Assembly (NCBI RefSeq): GCF_036322585.1
Contig: NZ_AP024600.1
Location: 1,550,001-1,614,000 of the forward strand
Direction of reading: 5' to 3'
DNA: 64,000 nucleotides
Source: Luteolibacter sp. LG18
GTDB taxonomy: Bacteria; Verrucomicrobiota; Verrucomicrobiia; Verrucomicrobiales; Akkermansiaceae
Below the pieces are notes generated by a model, which saw only the letters and a list, made by a program, of their open reading frames with translations, did no database searches and was not told the DNA's origin. Shown here piece after piece: positions 16,339 through 24,995 of the stretch (its first letter is position 1; every line of letters starts with the position of its first letter). A program made the position numbers and the translations under genes.

Positions 16339-17439
16339 TCATTCCTTCGGCGCGGTGGCCGCCTTCCGATCCTCGGAAACCCAGCCGAAGAACTGGCTGG
16401 CAGTGGGAATCGTTCCCTGGGCCACCGCCGCGGCGTAACGCTCCATCGGCCCTTTCGGGGCTTCGCCGGGACTGGCAATGAGGGCCTTCGCGGTTGCCAG
16501 CGCGCCGTCCTTGTCACCCGCTTTCGCCTGGAGGGCTGCGAGCGGCACCATCTCGTAGTAGCGGCCGGGCTTGCCGCCCTGGGCCTTGATCATTTTCGCC
16601 GCGACCGCGAGGCGGAGCTCATCCGGCGCGCCCGGGGCACGGGCGTCATCGCAGAGCGCCCCCGCGAACTGGGTGAGGGGCATCAGCGCGGTGGCGTCGT
16701 CCGGCAGACCGGCGAGCGCGGTCTTCACCTCGTTCCAGTCGCCCTTGGCCTGGGCCAGCTCGAATTTCAGCGAGGGCACGGCGCGGCTGCCGGATTTCTC
16801 CAGGGCCTCGATCTTCTCCGCCATCACGGCCGTGTCCTTCTTCGCCTGAGCCGCGCGGTAGTCCTTGAAGAGCTGCGTCTCCGCGGCGCGGTCCGCCTTC
16901 TGCTTCGCGATCACGCCGAGCGCCTGGGTCTCTCCGTCGCCACCGGCGAGCAGCTTTTCGATCACCTCGTCGGTGAGCTGTCCCGGATGCTGGGTGGCGA
17001 GCAGCTTGCCGTCCCGCACCAGGAAGGTGTGGGGGATGCCGGTGACGCCCGCGAGCTTCAGCCAGGCGGTTTCAAATGCGCCGCCCTTGCCGACGAAGGC
17101 CACCGGGTAGGACATGCCCTCGCCCTTGGCCTTCACGAATTTCTCGACCTTCTCGTACGGGCCGTCGTCCCAGACATTGAGGCCGATCACCCGCAGGCCC
17201 TTGTCGGCATATTTCTTGTGCAGCTCGTTGACGTGCGGGATCGAGGCGATGCACGGACCGCACCAGGTGGCCCAGCATTCGATGAAGTAGAGCTTGCCGG
17301 GTTCCCACGCGGCGGGCGCGGTGCCTTGCACGAACTTCGCCTGGCCGAAGGCCTCCGGGGTGACGGCGTCGCCCGCCTGGAGCGCGAAAACTTGGGACAC
17401 CATCGCGATGGCGGAGCCGAGGATGAGGAGCGGTTTCAT
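16339..17439 (-). CDS. TlpA/ResA-like secreted thioredoxin-fold protein with C-terminal extension
   Basis: This 366-residue protein has a signal peptide (PLLILGSAIAMVSQVFA), then a thioredoxin fold with the redox motif ATWCGPC (Cys60 and Cys63) and the cis-proline loop VTGIPHTFLV. About 200 Ala/Lys-rich helical residues follow and look like TPR or helical-bundle sequence. TlpA-like proteins reduce or isomerise disulfides outside the cytoplasm. A TGCTCA-N7-TGAACA palindrome lies 56-74 bases upstream of the start. It matches palindromes in front of the adjacent surface-protein and chitinase genes, which suggests shared control. Confidence 0.86.
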   Translation of the reverse strand: MKPLLILGSAIAMVSQVFALQAGDAVTPEAFGQAKFVQGTAPAAWEPGKLYFIECWATWCGPCIASIPHVNELHKKYADKGLRVIGLNVWDDGPYEKVEKFVKAKGEGMSYPVAFVGKGGAFETAWLKLAGVTGIPHTFLVRDGKLLATQHPGQLTDEVIEKLLAGGDGETQALGVIAKQKADRAAETQLFKDYRAAQAKKDTAVMAEKIEALEKSGSRAVPSLKFELAQAKGDWNEVKTALAGLPDDATALMPLTQFAGALCDDARAPGAPDELRLAVAAKMIKAQGGKPGRYYEMVPLAALQAKAGDKDGALATAKALIASPGEAPKGPMERYAAAVAQGTIPTASQFFGWVSEDRKAATAPKE

Positions 17440-17494
17440 GGACTGGAATGTATCGCCAGGCGCCGGGCGGACAATCGTCCGGCCCGGCGCGATT

Positions 17495-17513
17495 TGCTCA
17501 AACGGATTGAACA
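17495..17513. promoter_or_regulatory. Candidate operator TGCTCA-N7-TGAACA
   Basis: A 6-7-6 palindrome with one mismatch (TGCTCA, spacer AACGGAT, TGAACA) lies 56 bases upstream of the TlpA-like start codon. It shares arms and spacer length with the sites at 21114-21132 and 24951-24969. The regulator is probably the GntR/LacI-type protein at 24996, by inference from proximity. Confidence 0.55.
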
Positions 17514-17520
17514 GGAGGCC

Positions 17521-20500
17521 TCACGGAGCGGTGACGCGGAGGCGGGTGAAGAGCTTTTCGAACGAACCCGCCGGAACGGTGACGGTGACCTTCCGGAAAG
17601 TCCCGTGGTCCTCGAAGGAATACATCTCCGGACCCACGGGATACCATTCCCCGGTCGCCATCGTCGGCGAATATTCCATCACGGGAACGTAACCGCCGTC
17701 CTCCGCTTCCTTCTGAAAGTCGAAGGTGATCGTGAAATTCGAGCCCGAGCGCACGGCGGTGGGTCGCTTTCCGGAAACGCCGGAAGCGGGATTCGCTCCC
17801 AGCACGTATTCCACCAGGTTCGCCAACCCGTCCTTGTCCGGATCGGCGGAGCCCCCGAGCACGACCGCACCGCCGCTGCCGGCATGGTAACCGAGGATCC
17901 AGGTATCATAGGCCGTAGCCGCGGTGAGCGTGACGTTCTTGCCGCCGTCGGCGTAGCGGATCAGGTAGTTCGTACCGCCCAGGGCGAAAGCGGCGCCCTC
18001 CGGCAGACCGGCGAAGGTGCCGGTAAGCGTGCCGGTGTAGGTGAGCAGGGTGAACTTCGTGCCCGGGGCGGGTGCCACGGTGCCGAGGTTCGAAACGGAC
18101 AGCGCCCCGCTGAGCGTGAGATTGCCTGCGCCGGTGCCCAACACCGCGATCTTGTCGGCCGTGGTGTCGTCGGTATTGATCTGCGCCTCATAGATACCGG
18201 CGGCAGCGATATTCAGATTCGCCGCGGTGCCCGCCACCGTGATCGTGCCGATCGGAGCGGACGGCGTGCCCGGAGCGAGGATACCGCTGATGGCCGTGTT
18301 TCCGAAGGTGCCCGTCGCCGCGATGCGGGTGCCCGCGGAACCGGAAAGCGTGCCACTGCTGTGCGTGGGGTTCAGCAATTGCAAGCTGCCCGCGGACACC
18401 GTGGTGGAGCCGGAATAGGTGCTGTCCGCGGAAAGCGTGACCGCCGCCGTGCCGGTGAGGTTGAGGCTGCCCGCCCCGTTGATCGCGCTGCCGAAGGTGA
18501 ACGTGCCGCTCCGGAACAGATTCAACGTGGCCCCGCTGGAGATGGTCACCGGAGCACTACCGAAAGAGCCGGTGCTGCCGCCCGTGCCCAGCAGCAGGAT
18601 GCCGCCGGTGACGCTCACCGCGCCGGTCACCGGCACATCGCCGTAAAGGGTCACCGTGCCATTGCCGCTCTTCGTCAGGTTTCCGGGAACCGAGAAACCC
18701 TGCACCACCGTCAGCGAGGTGCCGGTGGTGTTGTTGCAGGAGAGCTCCGCGTTTCCGGTGGCGGTGAACGCACCGGTCCACAACGACTCGGTGCCGATGG
18801 TGTGCTGGAGAATGCCGCCCGATTCGAGCGTCACCTGCGACGAGTAGGTGCCCGGGTTCGCCGCCTGCGCCGTGCCACCCGCCTTGATGCGGAGCGTGGC
18901 TCCGAATGGATCCGGGCCGTAACCGGCGAGGCTACCGCCCTCGACCACGGTGTGGAGGTTCTTCGAGACGCCGAGCAGATACACTTGGCTGGTACCGGTC
19001 TTGGTAAGGGTGAAGCCGTCGCCGTCCAGCACCCCGCTGCTGCCGATGTCGAAATTGCGCGGGCCACCGATCGTCGCGTCTCCCGCGAGCGTCACGTTGC
19101 GGATGCCCGCCGCGGCCACGCCGGTGAAAGTGATGTCGGCGCTGCTGTTGGCGAGCGCGGGCAGGGAACCATCCCCCGTGCCCGAGATCGTGAGGTCCAC
19201 CATCCGCGAAACCGCGGTCATGCCCTTGCCATTCAGGTCCAGCGAGGCCCCGGAGGCGACGGTCACGCCGGAAGTGAAACCGAGCGCCTGCGCGGTGCCG
19301 AGGATCAATCGCCCGGCGTTCACGGCGACGGGGCCGACGAACGTGTTGGTCCCGCCGAGCGTGACATTGCCGGTGCCGGACTTGGTGATGCCCGCGCCCG
19401 CTCCATCGATGGCGCCGCCGGTGAGCGTGTAGTCATTGCCAGCGAGGTTGGTGAAGGTCACCGAATGCGGGGTCATGGTACCTGCCAGCGTCACCGTTCC
19501 CGCGACACCATCGCCGAAGACCACCGCATCGGCGTTGAAATACCGGTTGTCACCGCCATCCCAGTTCGCGGAGCCGTTGATGTCCCACGTTCCGTTGGCC
19601 GAGGCGTTGAGCCAGGTGCGGGTCTGGCCGTCGAGACCGGTGATCTGGGCGGAGGTGGCCCCCACCGTGAGCGAAGGCGTGCCGCGGTAGTTCGCGGGAT
19701 TGAAGCTCAGCGTGCCCGCGCCGCTCTGCGAGGCATAGGTCATCAGCGTGAGCGTGCCGGTGCCCGGCGCGGGAAACATCGAGGGTGAAACCACCGTGCT
19801 GCCGGTGAGGTTCAATGCGCCGCCGATGGCGAGGGTGCCGTGGGCATTCCTGTAGGTGATCGCGGCATTGGTCGAATCCAGCGTCAGATTGCCCGCCACC
19901 GAGGTCCCGGCCCCGAGGGTGGTGGTGGCACCGGCGGCGGTGGCGACCGACATCGAACCGCCGAGGGCACCGGGGAAATTGAAATTGCCGCGCGCCAGGC
20001 TGAGGGTGCCCGTGTAACCGGCGGCGCTGCCGAGCAGCGACACGGTGCCGGTGGTCGTGGCCGGGCTGTTGATCTCCAGATTGCCGGTGCCCAAGAGGTT
20101 CCCGCCGATGAAACCCGCGGCGGTGGTATTCACGCCGAGCCGTGCTCCCGCGGCGGCGACGGTGACATGGCCCATCACACCGCGGTTGTTTTCCAGACGG
20201 ATGGCGCCCGTTTGTGCGGCGGTGTCGGCGCTGTTGGTGTAGCCGGTTCCCGCGATGGTGAAGGAATTGCAGACGCCGGTGGAGTTCAGATACGCCTGGC
20301 CTCCGGAAGCGACGGTCACGGGCCCCGCGCCGAAGGCCATCACGTAGCTGTTGGCGTTCACACGGCCACCGTTGATGGCGAGACCGCCCTTGTAGCTGTT
20401 GGACCCCTGAAGCACCAGGATGCCGGGGCCCTCCTTGGTGATGCCGAAGGTGCCACTGCCATCGGTGACCGGAGAGGAGATCGAAAGCTGGGTGGTGCCG

Positions 20501-20958
20501 CTGTTCGGAAAGGCGGTGGTGACCACCAGGTTGTCCTTCAGGAGCACCGAGCCGGGGCTGATGTTGTTGGTGGCCACTCCACCGGCGTTCGGCACCGTGA
20601 TCGTGGCATCGGCAGTACCGGTCTGGTCGAAGATGAGCTGGGAAGTGCCCGGCGTGCCGGCGTTGACGGTGAATCCCAGGTAGCTCGTCGCCGAGTCCCC
20701 GATGTTCAGCGCGCCGAGCGTGCGGTTGCCCGCGAGGCTGATGGAGCGCGCGACGGTGATGTTGTTGGTGAGGTTGGCGATGTCACCGACACCGTTGGGC
20801 ACGCCTCCGGTCCAACTGGAAGTGGTGCCCCACGTGCCCGCGGCATCGACATTCCAACTGCCGGCGACAGCGGTGGCCGGAGTGGCGGTGGAGGCGAGGA
20901 AGACGGCGGACGCCAGCGGACGGGCGATGGCAAGACGGAGGAATGCTTTGGGTTTCAT
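17521..20958 (-). CDS. Large secreted autotransporter-type beta-strand-repeat protein
   Basis: This protein of about 1145 residues starts with a signal peptide (RLAIARPLASAVFLAS, cleaved near ATA-VAG) and the repeat-opening GTWGTTSSWTGGVPNGVGD. Many Gly/Thr/Ser-rich strands follow, of the autotransporter-associated repeat type (ITKSGTGNVTLGGTNTF, LTKSGNGTVTLYGDVPV, GITKEGPGILVLQGSNSYKG), which should fold as a long beta-helix. The C-terminus has no beta-barrel. It carries the linker SADPDKDGLANLVEYVLGAN and a small beta domain typical of Verrucomicrobia surface proteins, so export or anchoring is not by a classical autotransporter barrel. ATG 20958 directly precedes the signal peptide. It is probably an adhesin or surface-layer component. 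Confidence 0.82.
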   Translation of the reverse strand: MKPKAFLRLAIARPLASAVFLASTATPATAVAGSWNVDAAGTWGTTSSWTGGVPNGVGDIANLTNNITVARSISLAGNRTLGALNIGDSATSYLGFTVNAGTPGTSQLIFDQTGTADATITVPNAGGVATNNISPGSVLLKDNLVVTTAFPNSGTTQLSISSPVTDGSGTFGITKEGPGILVLQGSNSYKGGLAINGGRVNANSYVMAFGAGPVTVASGGQAYLNSTGVCNSFTIAGTGYTNSADTAAQTGAIRLENNRGVMGHVTVAAAGARLGVNTTAAGFIGGNLLGTGNLEINSPATTTGTVSLLGSAAGYTGTLSLARGNFNFPGALGGSMSVATAAGATTTLGAGTSVAGNLTLDSTNAAITYRNAHGTLAIGGALNLTGSTVVSPSMFPAPGTGTLTLMTYASQSGAGTLSFNPANYRGTPSLTVGATSAQITGLDGQTRTWLNASANGTWDINGSANWDGGDNRYFNADAVVFGDGVAGTVTLAGTMTPHSVTFTNLAGNDYTLTGGAIDGAGAGITKSGTGNVTLGGTNTFVGPVAVNAGRLILGTAQALGFTSGVTVASGASLDLNGKGMTAVSRMVDLTISGTGDGSLPALANSSADITFTGVAAAGIRNVTLAGDATIGGPRNFDIGSSGVLDGDGFTLTKTGTSQVYLLGVSKNLHTVVEGGSLAGYGPDPFGATLRIKAGGTAQAANPGTYSSQVTLESGGILQHTIGTESLWTGAFTATGNAELSCNNTTGTSLTVVQGFSVPGNLTKSGNGTVTLYGDVPVTGAVSVTGGILLLGTGGSTGSFGSAPVTISSGATLNLFRSGTFTFGSAINGAGSLNLTGTAAVTLSADSTYSGSTTVSAGSLQLLNPTHSSGTLSGSAGTRIAATGTFGNTAISGILAPGTPSAPIGTITVAGTAANLNIAAAGIYEAQINTDDTTADKIAVLGTGAGNLTLSGALSVSNLGTVAPAPGTKFTLLTYTGTLTGTFAGLPEGAAFALGGTNYLIRYADGGKNVTLTAATAYDTWILGYHAGSGGAVVLGGSADPDKDGLANLVEYVLGANPASGVSGKRPTAVRSGSNFTITFDFQKEAEDGGYVPVMEYSPTMATGEWYPVGPEMYSFEDHGTFRKVTVTVPAGSFEKLFTRLRVTAP

Positions 20959-21113
20959 GATGCAGACAGACAGAACAGGGGTTGTCGGACATGCCCGGTG
21001 AAACGGCGGCTTCGCTGCGTTGGAACGCTCGCGCCACCGGTTCACGGGGATTTCTCAACCTCACGCCCTAAAGCACTCTCCAAGCCGCCGCGATGAATTC
21101 CATGCAACGGCAT

Positions 21114-21132
21114 TGTTCAAGATACTTGAACA
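21114..21132. promoter_or_regulatory. Candidate operator TGTTCA-N7-TGAACA
   Basis: This perfect 6-7-6 palindrome (TGTTCA, spacer AGATACT, TGAACA) lies about 155 bases upstream of the beta-strand-repeat protein start and 45 bases beyond the chitinase stop codon. It is identical in arms and spacing to the site at 24951-24969. Confidence 0.6.
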
Positions 21133-21177
21133 CGAATGCGCAGTATTCCGCTGCAAGTAATGATGATCTAACATCCA

Positions 21178-24100
21178 TCACTTCACCCGTATCTCGATCC
21201 GCGCGAAGGCCGCGGGCCGGGATGACATGGGGACGGTGTCCCGCCACACCGCCTCGAGCTTGCCGCCGCCGAGATCGACGGTCTGATGGAGGACCATCAG
21301 TCGGGACGGGGTGAAGGACGGGGTGGTGGAGGCGAGAACGCGGTACTCCACGTTGTTCGCGGTGGTGTCCGCGGGAACGACCACGCAGAAGTAGCCGGCG
21401 GTGGTGCCGGAAACCGTGAGGGTTCGTTTCTCGCTACGAGGTCCGCCGTAGTTCGTGGTTTGCGGGGCGGTACCGTTGAGGAACTCCAGCAGGTTCGAGC
21501 GGCCGTCGCCGTCCGGGTCCGCGGCGTAAGCGGTGGTGGCGAGGCCCTTGGCCGCGGCCCAGCTGGCGAACGAGCTGCCACCGGAGCCGACCGTCTGGCC
21601 GTTGAGCTTGAGATTCACGGGCTGGGACGGCGTGCCCGAACCGATGATGCCGATCGTGCCGGTGGTGTTATTCGCCAAGGTGTAGCCTCCCCAGGTGGGA
21701 TTGGTGGCGGTGTGGGTGCTGCCGCTCTTGCCGCCGTACACACCATCCCACATCGAGGACACGGTCCACGCGGCATCGAACTGGAGGTTCCAGGTGCTGA
21801 GCGCCGCGCCGGTCTGATTGGTAAAGCGCAGCTCGCCCTGGAACCCGCCGGCCCACGAATCGGTGACCACCAGCGAGAGCGCGGCTCCGGCCGCTGCGGC
21901 GTGGGACGTCCAGCCGTCCTCCGAGCTGGGGCCGCTGCTGTCGTCGTTGGTGATGGTGCCGGTGGCCGTAGCGGTACCGAGCGTCGCGCCGGTGGGATTG
22001 GAAAGCGCGAGCGTGAAGGTCTCGTCCGCTTCCACGGTTTCATCGCCGTCGATGGTCACCGCGACCGTCTTCGAGGTTTCGCCCGCGGCGAAGACCAGCG
22101 TACCGCTACGGGAAACGTAGTCGCTGTCCGCGGTGGCGGTGCCGTTCGCCGTGGCGTAGTCCACGCTCACGGAGGTAGCCGCGGCCTTGGAGAGCGAGAC
22201 GGTGAAGTTCAGCACGCTGGTGCCCGCATTGCCTTCCATCATGCTACCACCGGTCACGGACACCACCGGAGGCCCGCTGGTCGATCCGGCGATCCATTCC
22301 GCGAAGGCATTCGAGAGATCCGGGTGTGAAGCGTGTTCGTGGCCGATCTCCCAGCAGCCGACGCCGCGCACCGTCGCGCCACCCGCCAGCACGGTGCCGG
22401 TGGAGGACAGCAAGCCGTCCATCTTCCGCTTCATCGCGTCCGGCGGCGTGAACCACTCGCCGTTGATCTGCACCTCCAGTGCATTCGGATCGATGGCCGC
22501 GGTGTAGGCCACCTGGTTCGCGGCCCAGGTGTCCCGTACCGAGGACCACGAGTGGTTGCCGGAGCCATAGAACGGCAGGCCGACGATCACCTTCGATGCC
22601 GGGAACCCCTTGCCCAACACGTAATCGACGCCGCCCTTCACCGAAGCCTCGGGAAGCTGGTCGTTCGCCAGCGTCCACTGGGTGGAGCCCGGCTTGCGCA
22701 GCGGACCGTTCGCCGGGTTCTTCCAATCGTAGCCGAAGTAGAAGAAGAAGTCGGTGCAGTTCCCGAGCGTGGCGAAATCGAAGCCGCCGAGGTACCAGCC
22801 CGGACCGCTGCCGAACATGACGATGTAGCGGGAATCCGCCGCCTTCACCGTGGCGTGGAGCGTCTGCATCAGCGCGGTGAAGTTCGCACGCGAGGTGCCG
22901 GCATCGGCGGGGAACTCGTAATCGATGTCGACACCGTCGAGGTGGTTCGCCTGCAGGAACGCGACCACGTTGTTCGCGAAGGTCTGCCGCAGCGCGGGGC
23001 TGGCGGCGATGGTGGCGTACTGATCCGCGAGCGCTGCCGGATATGCGCCGCCGATGCTCACGATCACGGATTTCCCGAGCGTGTGACCCTCGTTCACCAC
23101 CGCGGGCAGGTACGAGGAGAACGATCCCAAGGTGGTGCCGATGGTGCCGTCCGCCTTCGGCTCGGCAAAGGCGGTGACGATCACGTCGTAGGCCTCCAGG
23201 TTCGCGGCCTGCAACGCGGCGGGATAGTCGGCGATGACCTGGTCCTGACCCTGCGCGTTGCGGAGGCCATTGAGATACCCCATCACCAGCGGATGCGAGG
23301 GCAGCGTGTTCAAACCCCGCTGCGGTCCCGTGGCGGGGGAGGGGCCCTCGGTGCCATCGGCGGGCACGGCGTCGCCAGCGAGCACGGAATTGACCACGTT
23401 CACCAGCGGGGAGTCTGTGGAGGGGCTGTAGGGCAGCTTCGCGGAGTTGTCCTGGATGGTTCCGGCGCGCAGGTCGCCGTAGGCATGCCAGACAATGACG
23501 CCGCCAAGGTTCTGCGTGCGGGCGTATTCCACCTTCAAGCCGATGCTACGGGAATCATCGTAGCTGAGGAACGAGGTCCCCTTGATCAGGTACGGTACCT
23601 TCGCCACGTCATCCCAATGGCGGGTCCAGCCGGTGAGATTCTGGCGGATGTACTCGTAGTTCGGCGTGGCGTCGTAGTCGCCCCACGTGGCGAAGTCCGC
23701 GCAGGTGGTGATCGGGCCATCCGGCTGCACGGTTTTCTGGACCTTCACGGTGGTGCCACCCAGCGCCGCGGTGCCGGAGCAGATCACGCCGCGGCCGTAG
23801 AACGGCAGGCCGAGCGCGATCTTCCCCCGCGGCACCCCCTTCCCGATCAAGAACTGCACGGCGGTGTCGCACGAGGCCGCGCCGCCTTCTTCATCCGGAT
23901 ACGCGTACAGCGGGGCATTGTGTCCGGCCTTGTCCGACCAGCCGCCTTGGACATCGTAGGTCATCAGGTCGATGGAATCGAGCAGGCCCGCCACCGCCAC
24001 CCAATCGAAGCCCGCGAGCTTGGCGGGCGCGCAGCTCAGGGCCGCACTCATCTGTTTGCCCGAGCCGATCGCGGCGCGCACCTCCTGCATCAGCGTGACG

Positions 24101-24852
24101 AAATTCGCGTAGTCCGCCTGGGTGCCGGTGAAATTCATGCCGCCGGAGGTACCGGGATATTCCCAGTCGAAATCGATGCCATCGAAGCCGAGCGCGATCA
24201 GGCGCTGGCAGTCCGCGACGAAGCGCGCGCGCTTCACCGGATCCGCGGCCATCGCGCCGTAGTGCTTGCACATGCTCCAGCCGCCGATGCTGGCCATCAC
24301 CTTCACCCCCTTCGCGTGGGCCAGCTCCAGGACCCCCGGCATGGTGCCCGGCACGTGGTAGGGCACCGGCATCGGCCCGGTCAGGCCGCTCGGCACGTGC
24401 CGCCAACCGCCGTTGTAGGACTCGAAACCCGCCGCCGTGACCTGCGCGGTGAAATTCCACTGCGGGCTCAGCTCGCCCCATACCAGGTAGTAGTCCCAGG
24501 ATGAATAGACATCTCCGTTCAACAACGGCGCGGGAGCCTGGACCTGCCCGGCTTGGTAGATGTTCGGATTCCGGAAATCGCCGCTGTGCAGCGAGCCATC
24601 CTCCGCCACGCCGAAGAACGAGAAGTTCAGGTGGGTGTACTGGGAGTAGTCGAGGTTGAGGTGGTTGAGAAAGCCCTGCTTCGGAAGGCCCGCGGTGGTG
24701 CCTTTCCATGCGTCCCACTGGGTGATGTAGCCGATCACGCGCTTGCCATGGCTGGCGGTGGTGCGGGTCGGCAACGAGTCCGCGCCGCCCGCCGCGTAGG
24801 CGCAGAGGGGGAGGAACGGCAGCAGGCCGCCGAGCAGAAGGGTCCGGAACAT
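21178..24852 (-). CDS. Secreted two-domain GH18 chitinase with Calx-beta and CBM2-like domains
   Basis: The product of about 1224 residues begins with a signal peptide (MFRTLLLGGLLPFLPLCAYA). The first GH18 catalytic domain carries DGIDFDWE (Glu about 231). The second carries DGVDIDYE (Glu about 646). Both therefore keep the DxxDxDxE catalytic motif. A Calx-beta domain (about 862-968), a CBM2-like chitin/cellulose-binding domain (about 980-1087, WNLQFDAAWTVSSMWDGVYG) and a DPDGDGRSNLLEF linker with a C-terminal beta domain follow. GH18 enzymes hydrolyse chitin; two catalytic domains on one chain suggest complementary endo and exo action. ATG 24852 is preferred over an upstream in-frame codon at 24987. 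A divergent GntR-type regulator and a shared palindrome lie upstream. Confidence 0.92.
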   Translation of the reverse strand: MFRTLLLGGLLPFLPLCAYAAGGADSLPTRTTASHGKRVIGYITQWDAWKGTTAGLPKQGFLNHLNLDYSQYTHLNFSFFGVAEDGSLHSGDFRNPNIYQAGQVQAPAPLLNGDVYSSWDYYLVWGELSPQWNFTAQVTAAGFESYNGGWRHVPSGLTGPMPVPYHVPGTMPGVLELAHAKGVKVMASIGGWSMCKHYGAMAADPVKRARFVADCQRLIALGFDGIDFDWEYPGTSGGMNFTGTQADYANFVTLMQEVRAAIGSGKQMSAALSCAPAKLAGFDWVAVAGLLDSIDLMTYDVQGGWSDKAGHNAPLYAYPDEEGGAASCDTAVQFLIGKGVPRGKIALGLPFYGRGVICSGTAALGGTTVKVQKTVQPDGPITTCADFATWGDYDATPNYEYIRQNLTGWTRHWDDVAKVPYLIKGTSFLSYDDSRSIGLKVEYARTQNLGGVIVWHAYGDLRAGTIQDNSAKLPYSPSTDSPLVNVVNSVLAGDAVPADGTEGPSPATGPQRGLNTLPSHPLVMGYLNGLRNAQGQDQVIADYPAALQAANLEAYDVIVTAFAEPKADGTIGTTLGSFSSYLPAVVNEGHTLGKSVIVSIGGAYPAALADQYATIAASPALRQTFANNVVAFLQANHLDGVDIDYEFPADAGTSRANFTALMQTLHATVKAADSRYIVMFGSGPGWYLGGFDFATLGNCTDFFFYFGYDWKNPANGPLRKPGSTQWTLANDQLPEASVKGGVDYVLGKGFPASKVIVGLPFYGSGNHSWSSVRDTWAANQVAYTAAIDPNALEVQINGEWFTPPDAMKRKMDGLLSSTGTVLAGGATVRGVGCWEIGHEHASHPDLSNAFAEWIAGSTSGPPVVSVTGGSMMEGNAGTSVLNFTVSLSKAAATSVSVDYATANGTATADSDYVSRSGTLVFAAGETSKTVAVTIDGDETVEADETFTLALSNPTGATLGTATATGTITNDDSSGPSSEDGWTSHAAAAGAALSLVVTDSWAGGFQGELRFTNQTGAALSTWNLQFDAAWTVSSMWDGVYGGKSGSTHTATNPTWGGYTLANNTTGTIGIIGSGTPSQPVNLKLNGQTVGSGGSSFASWAAAKGLATTAYAADPDGDGRSNLLEFLNGTAPQTTNYGGPRSEKRTLTVSGTTAGYFCVVVPADTTANNVEYRVLASTTPSFTPSRLMVLHQTVDLGGGKLEAVWRDTVPMSSRPAAFARIEIRVK

Positions 24853-24950
24853 GGGAGCTGTGTTTGGGGAATCCGGGAGGAGAATCCACCGAATCCATTC
24901 ATCCCTGAAGATCCCGGAATCCATTGGCAATGCGTGATTCCGGCGTGATC

Positions 24951-24969
24951 TGTTCAATCGCCTTGAACA
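24951..24969. promoter_or_regulatory. Candidate operator TGTTCA-N7-TGAACA
   Basis: This perfect 6-7-6 palindrome (TGTTCA, spacer ATCGCCT, TGAACA) lies in the 143-base gap between the divergent chitinase and GntR-type regulator genes. It is 27 bases from the regulator start, a position fit for autoregulation, and about 100 bases from the chitinase start. Confidence 0.65.
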
Positions 24970-24995
24970 AAATTCCGGTAATTGCATGCTGAATC

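Follow-up and report, generated by a model that had tools for sequence, protein, structure and literature searches.

Palindromic sites in three successive gaps of a Luteolibacter gene cluster: probable operators of a GntR/LacI-type regulator partnered with a beta-strand-repeat surface protein

The window analysed here is a 64,000-nucleotide stretch of the Luteolibacter sp. LG18 genome (NZ_AP024600.1, positions 1,550,001 to 1,614,000), and it contains the cluster listed in Table 1: genes for an exported chitinase, a beta-strand-repeat (PATR) surface protein and a TlpA-like protein form a co-directional row, divergent from a regulator gene. The N-terminus of the regulator matches Pfam GntR (PF00392; E 6.6e-7, 29.3 bits against a cut-off of 27), which places it in the GntR superfamily. 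Its C-terminal part matches no Pfam family. In an AlphaFold2 model made with 30 homologues (mean pLDDT 87.6), the best PDB folds found by Foldseek were the sensor domains of LacI, CcpA and PurR (E ~1e-14), and the modelled domain has the LacI/GalR periplasmic-binding-protein-like form of an AraR-type chimera. The chitinase probably starts at 24852 rather than at the longer open reading frame's start at 24987, in agreement with its orthologue in a sister species. Relatives of its GH18 part (~53-57% identical) are widespread in Chitinophaga-type Bacteroidota (Niastella, Chitinophaga, Longitalea and others), and sequence similarity of this kind suggests a transfer between phyla.

Table 1. Genes, palindromes and hairpin of the cluster (window coordinates)
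Feature	Coordinates	Strand	Remarks
TlpA/ResA-like thioredoxin-fold protein	16339..17439	-	start 17439; N-terminal signal-like stretch
GC-rich RNA hairpin	17460..17490	-	no T run; between O3 and TlpA-like start
O3, putative operator	17493..17515 (core 17495-17513)	.	one mismatch; surface-protein/TlpA-like gap
Beta-strand-repeat (PATR) surface protein, 1145 aa	17521..20958	-	start 20958; PF12951, TIGR02601
O2, putative operator	21112..21134 (core 21114-21132)	.	between chitinase stop and surface-protein start
Exported chitinase	21178..24852	-	two GH18, Calx-beta, CBM2
O1, putative operator	24949..24971 (core 24951-24969)	.	TCTGTTCAATCGCCTTGAACAAA, 23 bp; regulator/chitinase divergent gap
GntR/LacI-type regulator, 364 aa	24996..26090	+	N-terminal winged helix-turn-helix, C-terminal LacI/PurR-like sensor

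Each of the three successive gaps between these genes holds a copy of TGTTCA-N7-TGAACA, perfect at O1 and O2 and with one mismatch at O3, exactly as the preliminary description had located them. That description gave every copy the same arms and spacer, and so they have, but the arms are of 7 nt and the spacer of 5 nt rather than 6 and 7: the next base inward agrees in all three sites, making the true form TGTTCAA-N5-TTGAACA (19 bp, or 23 bp with outer contacts). The site said to lie 27 bases before the regulator is there, with 26 bases between its core and the ATG. The centre of O2 is ~165 bases upstream of the surface-protein ATG, and O3 lies 7 bases past the stop codon of the surface gene, ~55 bases ahead of the TlpA-like ATG. 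Placement in a promoter gap, claimed for every copy, thus holds for O1 and O2 and is least certain for O3, the weakest of the three sites, which follows a stop codon and has a conserved hairpin between it and the TlpA-like start. The heptamer TTGCATG flanks O1 (~24982-24988, 12 bases off) and O2 (~21101-21107, 6 bases off) both here and in the sister species, and is possibly a second element.

The palindrome is rare. Across the single-contig 5.8-Mb genome, TGTTCA-N7-TGAACA has two perfect places, both in the window, and five with one mismatch, one of them in the window; at up to one mismatch the longer form TGTTCAA-N5-TTGAACA occurs at the three window sites and nowhere else in the genome. Were the other two sites placed at random, both would be found within 8 kb of the first with a probability of ~8e-6. 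Shuffling the window is a weak test on its own (at 2 mismatches, 4 matches were reached in 4 of 100 shuffles), and the signal therefore draws its strength from the scan of the whole genome and from conservation.

Conservation was found in a sister species of the same genus (G059), which keeps the gene order with 71% identity in the regulator, 89% in the chitinase, 77% in the surface protein and 79% in the TlpA-like protein. Ten places in its genome match the motif with at most 2 mismatches, and three of the ten are in the three orthologous gaps, an outcome with an estimated chance of ~1e-10. The counterpart of O1, before the regulator, has the core TGATCAAGCTGCTTGAACA (in 23-bp form CCTGATCAAGCTGCTTGAACAGC, which contains CTG-N15-CAG). 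The counterpart of O2, TGTACAATATCCTTGTACA, before the surface gene, reads TGTACAA-N5-TTGTACA: one position in each arm differs from the window, a compensatory change that preserves the dyad. The counterpart of O3, TGATCAATTGATTTGAGCA, occupies the orthologous place before the TlpA-like gene and overlaps the stop codon of the surface gene, which explains part of its left arm. Throughout the aligned gaps the arms are kept and the spacers and much of the flanks have diverged. The dyads stand, then, before the regulator and its presumed targets, are rare elsewhere and are retained in orthologous gaps, the pattern of a local operator and regulon. The preliminary description had proposed such a regulon, with an operator shared by the genes next to the regulator, and rarity and three-gap conservation support it; the findings it had named as evidence against one, frequent sites elsewhere or loss from orthologous gaps, were not made.

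We consider it likely that the palindromes serve the adjacent GntR/LacI-type regulator as operators, that the regulator controls itself, and that regulator and surface protein form the core of the system; that this protein is what binds them is something we infer from sequence comparison. It very probably binds before its own gene, the chitinase gene and the surface-protein gene, and less certainly before the TlpA-like gene. Of the proposed targets, the chitinase and the surface protein remain probable, and control of the TlpA-like (disulfide-handling) protein hangs on O3, with its mismatch and its place after a stop codon, and is the weakest part of the prediction. By analogy with AraR, LacI and PurR, the protein would most likely act as a dimeric repressor. 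Ligand-free regulator on O1 would hold two promoters off, its own and that of the divergent chitinase, regulator on O2 would keep the surface-protein gene off, and regulator on O3 might, more weakly, affect transcription into the TlpA-like gene. A small ligand, presumably an oligosaccharide, would bind the LacI-like domain and release the regulator. The cluster showed no recognisable sigma-70-like promoter, so that repression by promoter overlap is an assumption.

In a more distant genome (G012), a 44% identical regulator homologue is directly divergent from the surface protein's homologue (51% identical), and the gap between the two holds one site, TGTTCAATTCCGTTGATCA (the contigs are short and the regulator is split between them). 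The chitinase homologue of that genome (74%) is on another contig with no site at 2 mismatches; a PATR-like repeat is found just upstream of it. Over three other genomes, of which this is one, chitinase homologues (~74%) sit away from the regulator and without such a site nearby; neither regulator nor site was present within the available flanks of the chitinase homologues of G187 and G379 (1.5 kb searched) and of three Verrucomicrobiota MAG contigs (one, JAIYDT010000245.1, probably the same record as the G012 contig). Since the G012 pair carries the site and chitinases elsewhere lack it in the flanks searched, the site is associated with regulator and surface protein. These comparisons support the surface protein as the core partner, constant in the regulator's lineage. 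Judged from few genomes, the chitinase appears to be a later recruit in the lineage of Luteolibacter sp. LG18 and its sister species; here it sits between regulator and surface protein, with putative operators on both sides. The locus appears to be a clear example of an existing regulon that took in an enzyme gene along with operator copies.

The label "chitin-responsive" given in the preliminary description is accordingly not borne out: the constant partner is the beta-strand-repeat protein, and chitinases elsewhere have no site within the flanks searched. A chitin regulon, with GlcNAc or chitobiose as ligand and the chitinase, surface and TlpA-like proteins as a chitin-use unit, is possible but doubtful. 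It would account for a GH18-GH18-CBM2 chitinase between two operators, it suits the LacI-type sugar-sensor fold of the regulator, and the PATR-like repeat next to the G012 chitinase homologue is in its favour. The more distant G012 pair, however, consists of regulator and surface protein without a chitinase, members of the regulator's subfamily partner PATR proteins and not chitinases, and a scan of the eight neighbouring proteins identified none for chitin uptake or GlcNAc catabolism.

The regulator belongs to a family that is large in Verrucomicrobiota, with many members in relatives; no plasmid relatives were found. Among 120 distinct family members with usable upstream DNA, perfect dyads with 7-nt arms have mostly spacers of 5 (10 members) and 7 (8 members), compared with ~0.6 in shuffles. 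Odd-centred dyads with at least 8 of 9 pairs occur in 12 of the 120 upstreams against 0.7 in shuffles, 2 even-centred and 4 inside gene starts, some of these palindromic upstreams being mutual orthologues and hence not independent. In the nearest subfamily, 12 of 40 members have WCTG-N15-CAGW, a 23-bp site laid out in the same way, within 100 bp upstream, where the background is 0.2 and other spacings of WCTG and CAGW from 5 to 25 give 0-3 members each (Poisson P ~1e-17 with no correction for relatedness; the 12 include several orthologues, and reducing them by eye to 9 groups leaves an excess that is still extreme). A clear 23-bp site is lacking in over half of the 40 upstreams. In O1 of the window the outer bases are TCTG on one side and CAAA on the other, and O1 does not itself match WCTG-N15-CAGW. 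As a stand-alone predictor of targets, TCTG-N15-CAGA was rejected as unspecific: the Luteolibacter sp. LG18 genome (G000) has it at 39 places, and the reversed control at 15. When palindromic motifs were sought freely (EM) in the upstream DNA of the whole family, the search locked on to a shared T-rich promoter-like stretch at about -45, and the geometry tests were used in its place. A GCAA...TTTTTTGACA-like stretch recurs ~45 bases before many of the regulator genes and may be a promoter element common to the lineage.

These upstream sites also bear on whether the palindromes are bound by a different, unlinked regulator, the neighbouring GntR/LacI gene being just one target. We regard this as unlikely. 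The genome has 13 members of the regulator family, LacI- and other HTH-family proteins bind 19-bp dyads as well, and the assignment to the neighbouring protein is itself a prediction; but the sites are confined to the cluster genome-wide, the site travels with the regulator gene and not with the chitinase, and sister regulators carry their own, different dyads at a similar distance from the start and with the same 23-bp geometry.

Could the palindromes instead act as RNA, as terminators or mRNA-stability hairpins at gene ends? O3 invites the question: it lies past a stop codon, its RNA in the window can fold into a 7-bp stem, and after it comes a second hairpin (17460-17490), which is kept in the sister species with compensating changes in the alignment (folding z -3.0 and -3.9). 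That hairpin is possibly an attenuator or 3'-end stabiliser, and its conservation between O3 and the TlpA-like start means that transcription into the gene may follow from read-through and not from a separate promoter. For the palindromes themselves an RNA role is very improbable: O1 lies between divergent starts and not at a gene end, none of the three sites is followed by a T run, the sister species' O3 does not form the stem of the window O3, and the same dyad stands before the G012 regulator and, with changed letters, before many paralogues. On folding and T-run checks it was rejected for O1 and O2. Chance, or a leftover of a repeat element, can be practically dismissed: the motif is short and the window shuffle weak, but genome-wide rarity, clustering and a compensatory change amid diverging flanks speak against it.

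Returning to the reading in which the regulator and surface protein are the core, we find the same pairing in many members of the subfamily. Pfam PATR was present in 16 of 20 scanned divergent neighbours (at least 16 of the 40 members paired), these 20 having been chosen because most looked like secreted repeat proteins; family-wide it was present in 19 of 91 divergent neighbours, many of them incomplete. The calls are from Pfam scans, which replaced a PATR model of our own that gave few repeats. Since PATR genes make up around 1-2% of the genes in the genome (~49 open frames by eye among the top of the list), the pairing is well above background. The genome encodes very many PATR beta-strand-repeat proteins, many longer than 1500 aa. 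A distinct group of regulators in genus g21 (L187-L194) is divergent from an aminotransferase-like gene (starting ...VCDLVAYEPGKPIDETARELGL, HisC-like by eye) and not from a surface protein, and has upstream at most a half-site, TCTGTACTA. We tentatively suggest, giving it somewhat less than even chances, that the expanded GntR/LacI-type repressors of Verrucomicrobiota are private, autoregulated switches for single giant beta-strand-repeat proteins, each with a 23-bp operator of one shared geometry (outer TCTG...CAGA, variable inner arms), and that the window shows one such switch that captured a chitinase. If this is true, a cell could choose its surface repertoire by the ligand that it senses.

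No paper on the control of Verrucomicrobiota PATR surface proteins was found in the open-access literature searched (a limited library), and the control of these very numerous proteins appears to be unstudied. Nor, in the limited set of open papers searched, does there appear to be a description of a family of repressors that share an operator geometry and often pair with giant surface-repeat proteins. An operator geometry predicted for a regulator family would give a testable handle on the timing of PATR proteins and on the ligands sensed. A close known parallel in architecture is the GntR/LacI chimera AraR of Bacillus subtilis (PMC4218819): both combine a GntR winged helix with a GalR/LacI sensor, and both go with palindromic operators (putative ones here) in several promoters, in AraR those of a carbohydrate regulon. 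In AraR the operator, AtWtGTaCGTAcaaWT (PMC4218819), is an even palindrome of 16 bp with close GT..AC half-sites, whereas the sites described here are odd-centred, with a 5-nt spacer, arms of 7-9 nt and distant half-sites over 23 bp (TCTGnnnAA-N5-TTnnnCAGA type). The genes under AraR serve the uptake and catabolism of sugars; those chiefly paired with the present regulators encode giant beta-strand-repeat surface proteins. AraR was not among the phmmer PDB matches at E <= 1, nor among the best 50 Foldseek matches listed. Half-sites far from the centre, in motifs longer than those of other GntR subfamilies, are also known from the YtrA subfamily (PMC4494728), but in that subfamily the C-terminal domains are short, the genes controlled are those of ABC transporters and divergons are rare (PMC4494728), in contrast to the LacI-type sensor and divergent gene pairs seen here. 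LacI, PurR and CcpA share the C-terminal sensor fold, while the DNA-binding domain here is of the GntR and not the LacI type. As in GntR divergons such as those of FadR and HutC (PMC4494728), the regulator is divergent from a predicted target and the gap between them holds a shared site; here, however, O1 is near the regulator start (36 bp) and not in mid-gap, and extra putative operators are found downstream between the co-directional genes.
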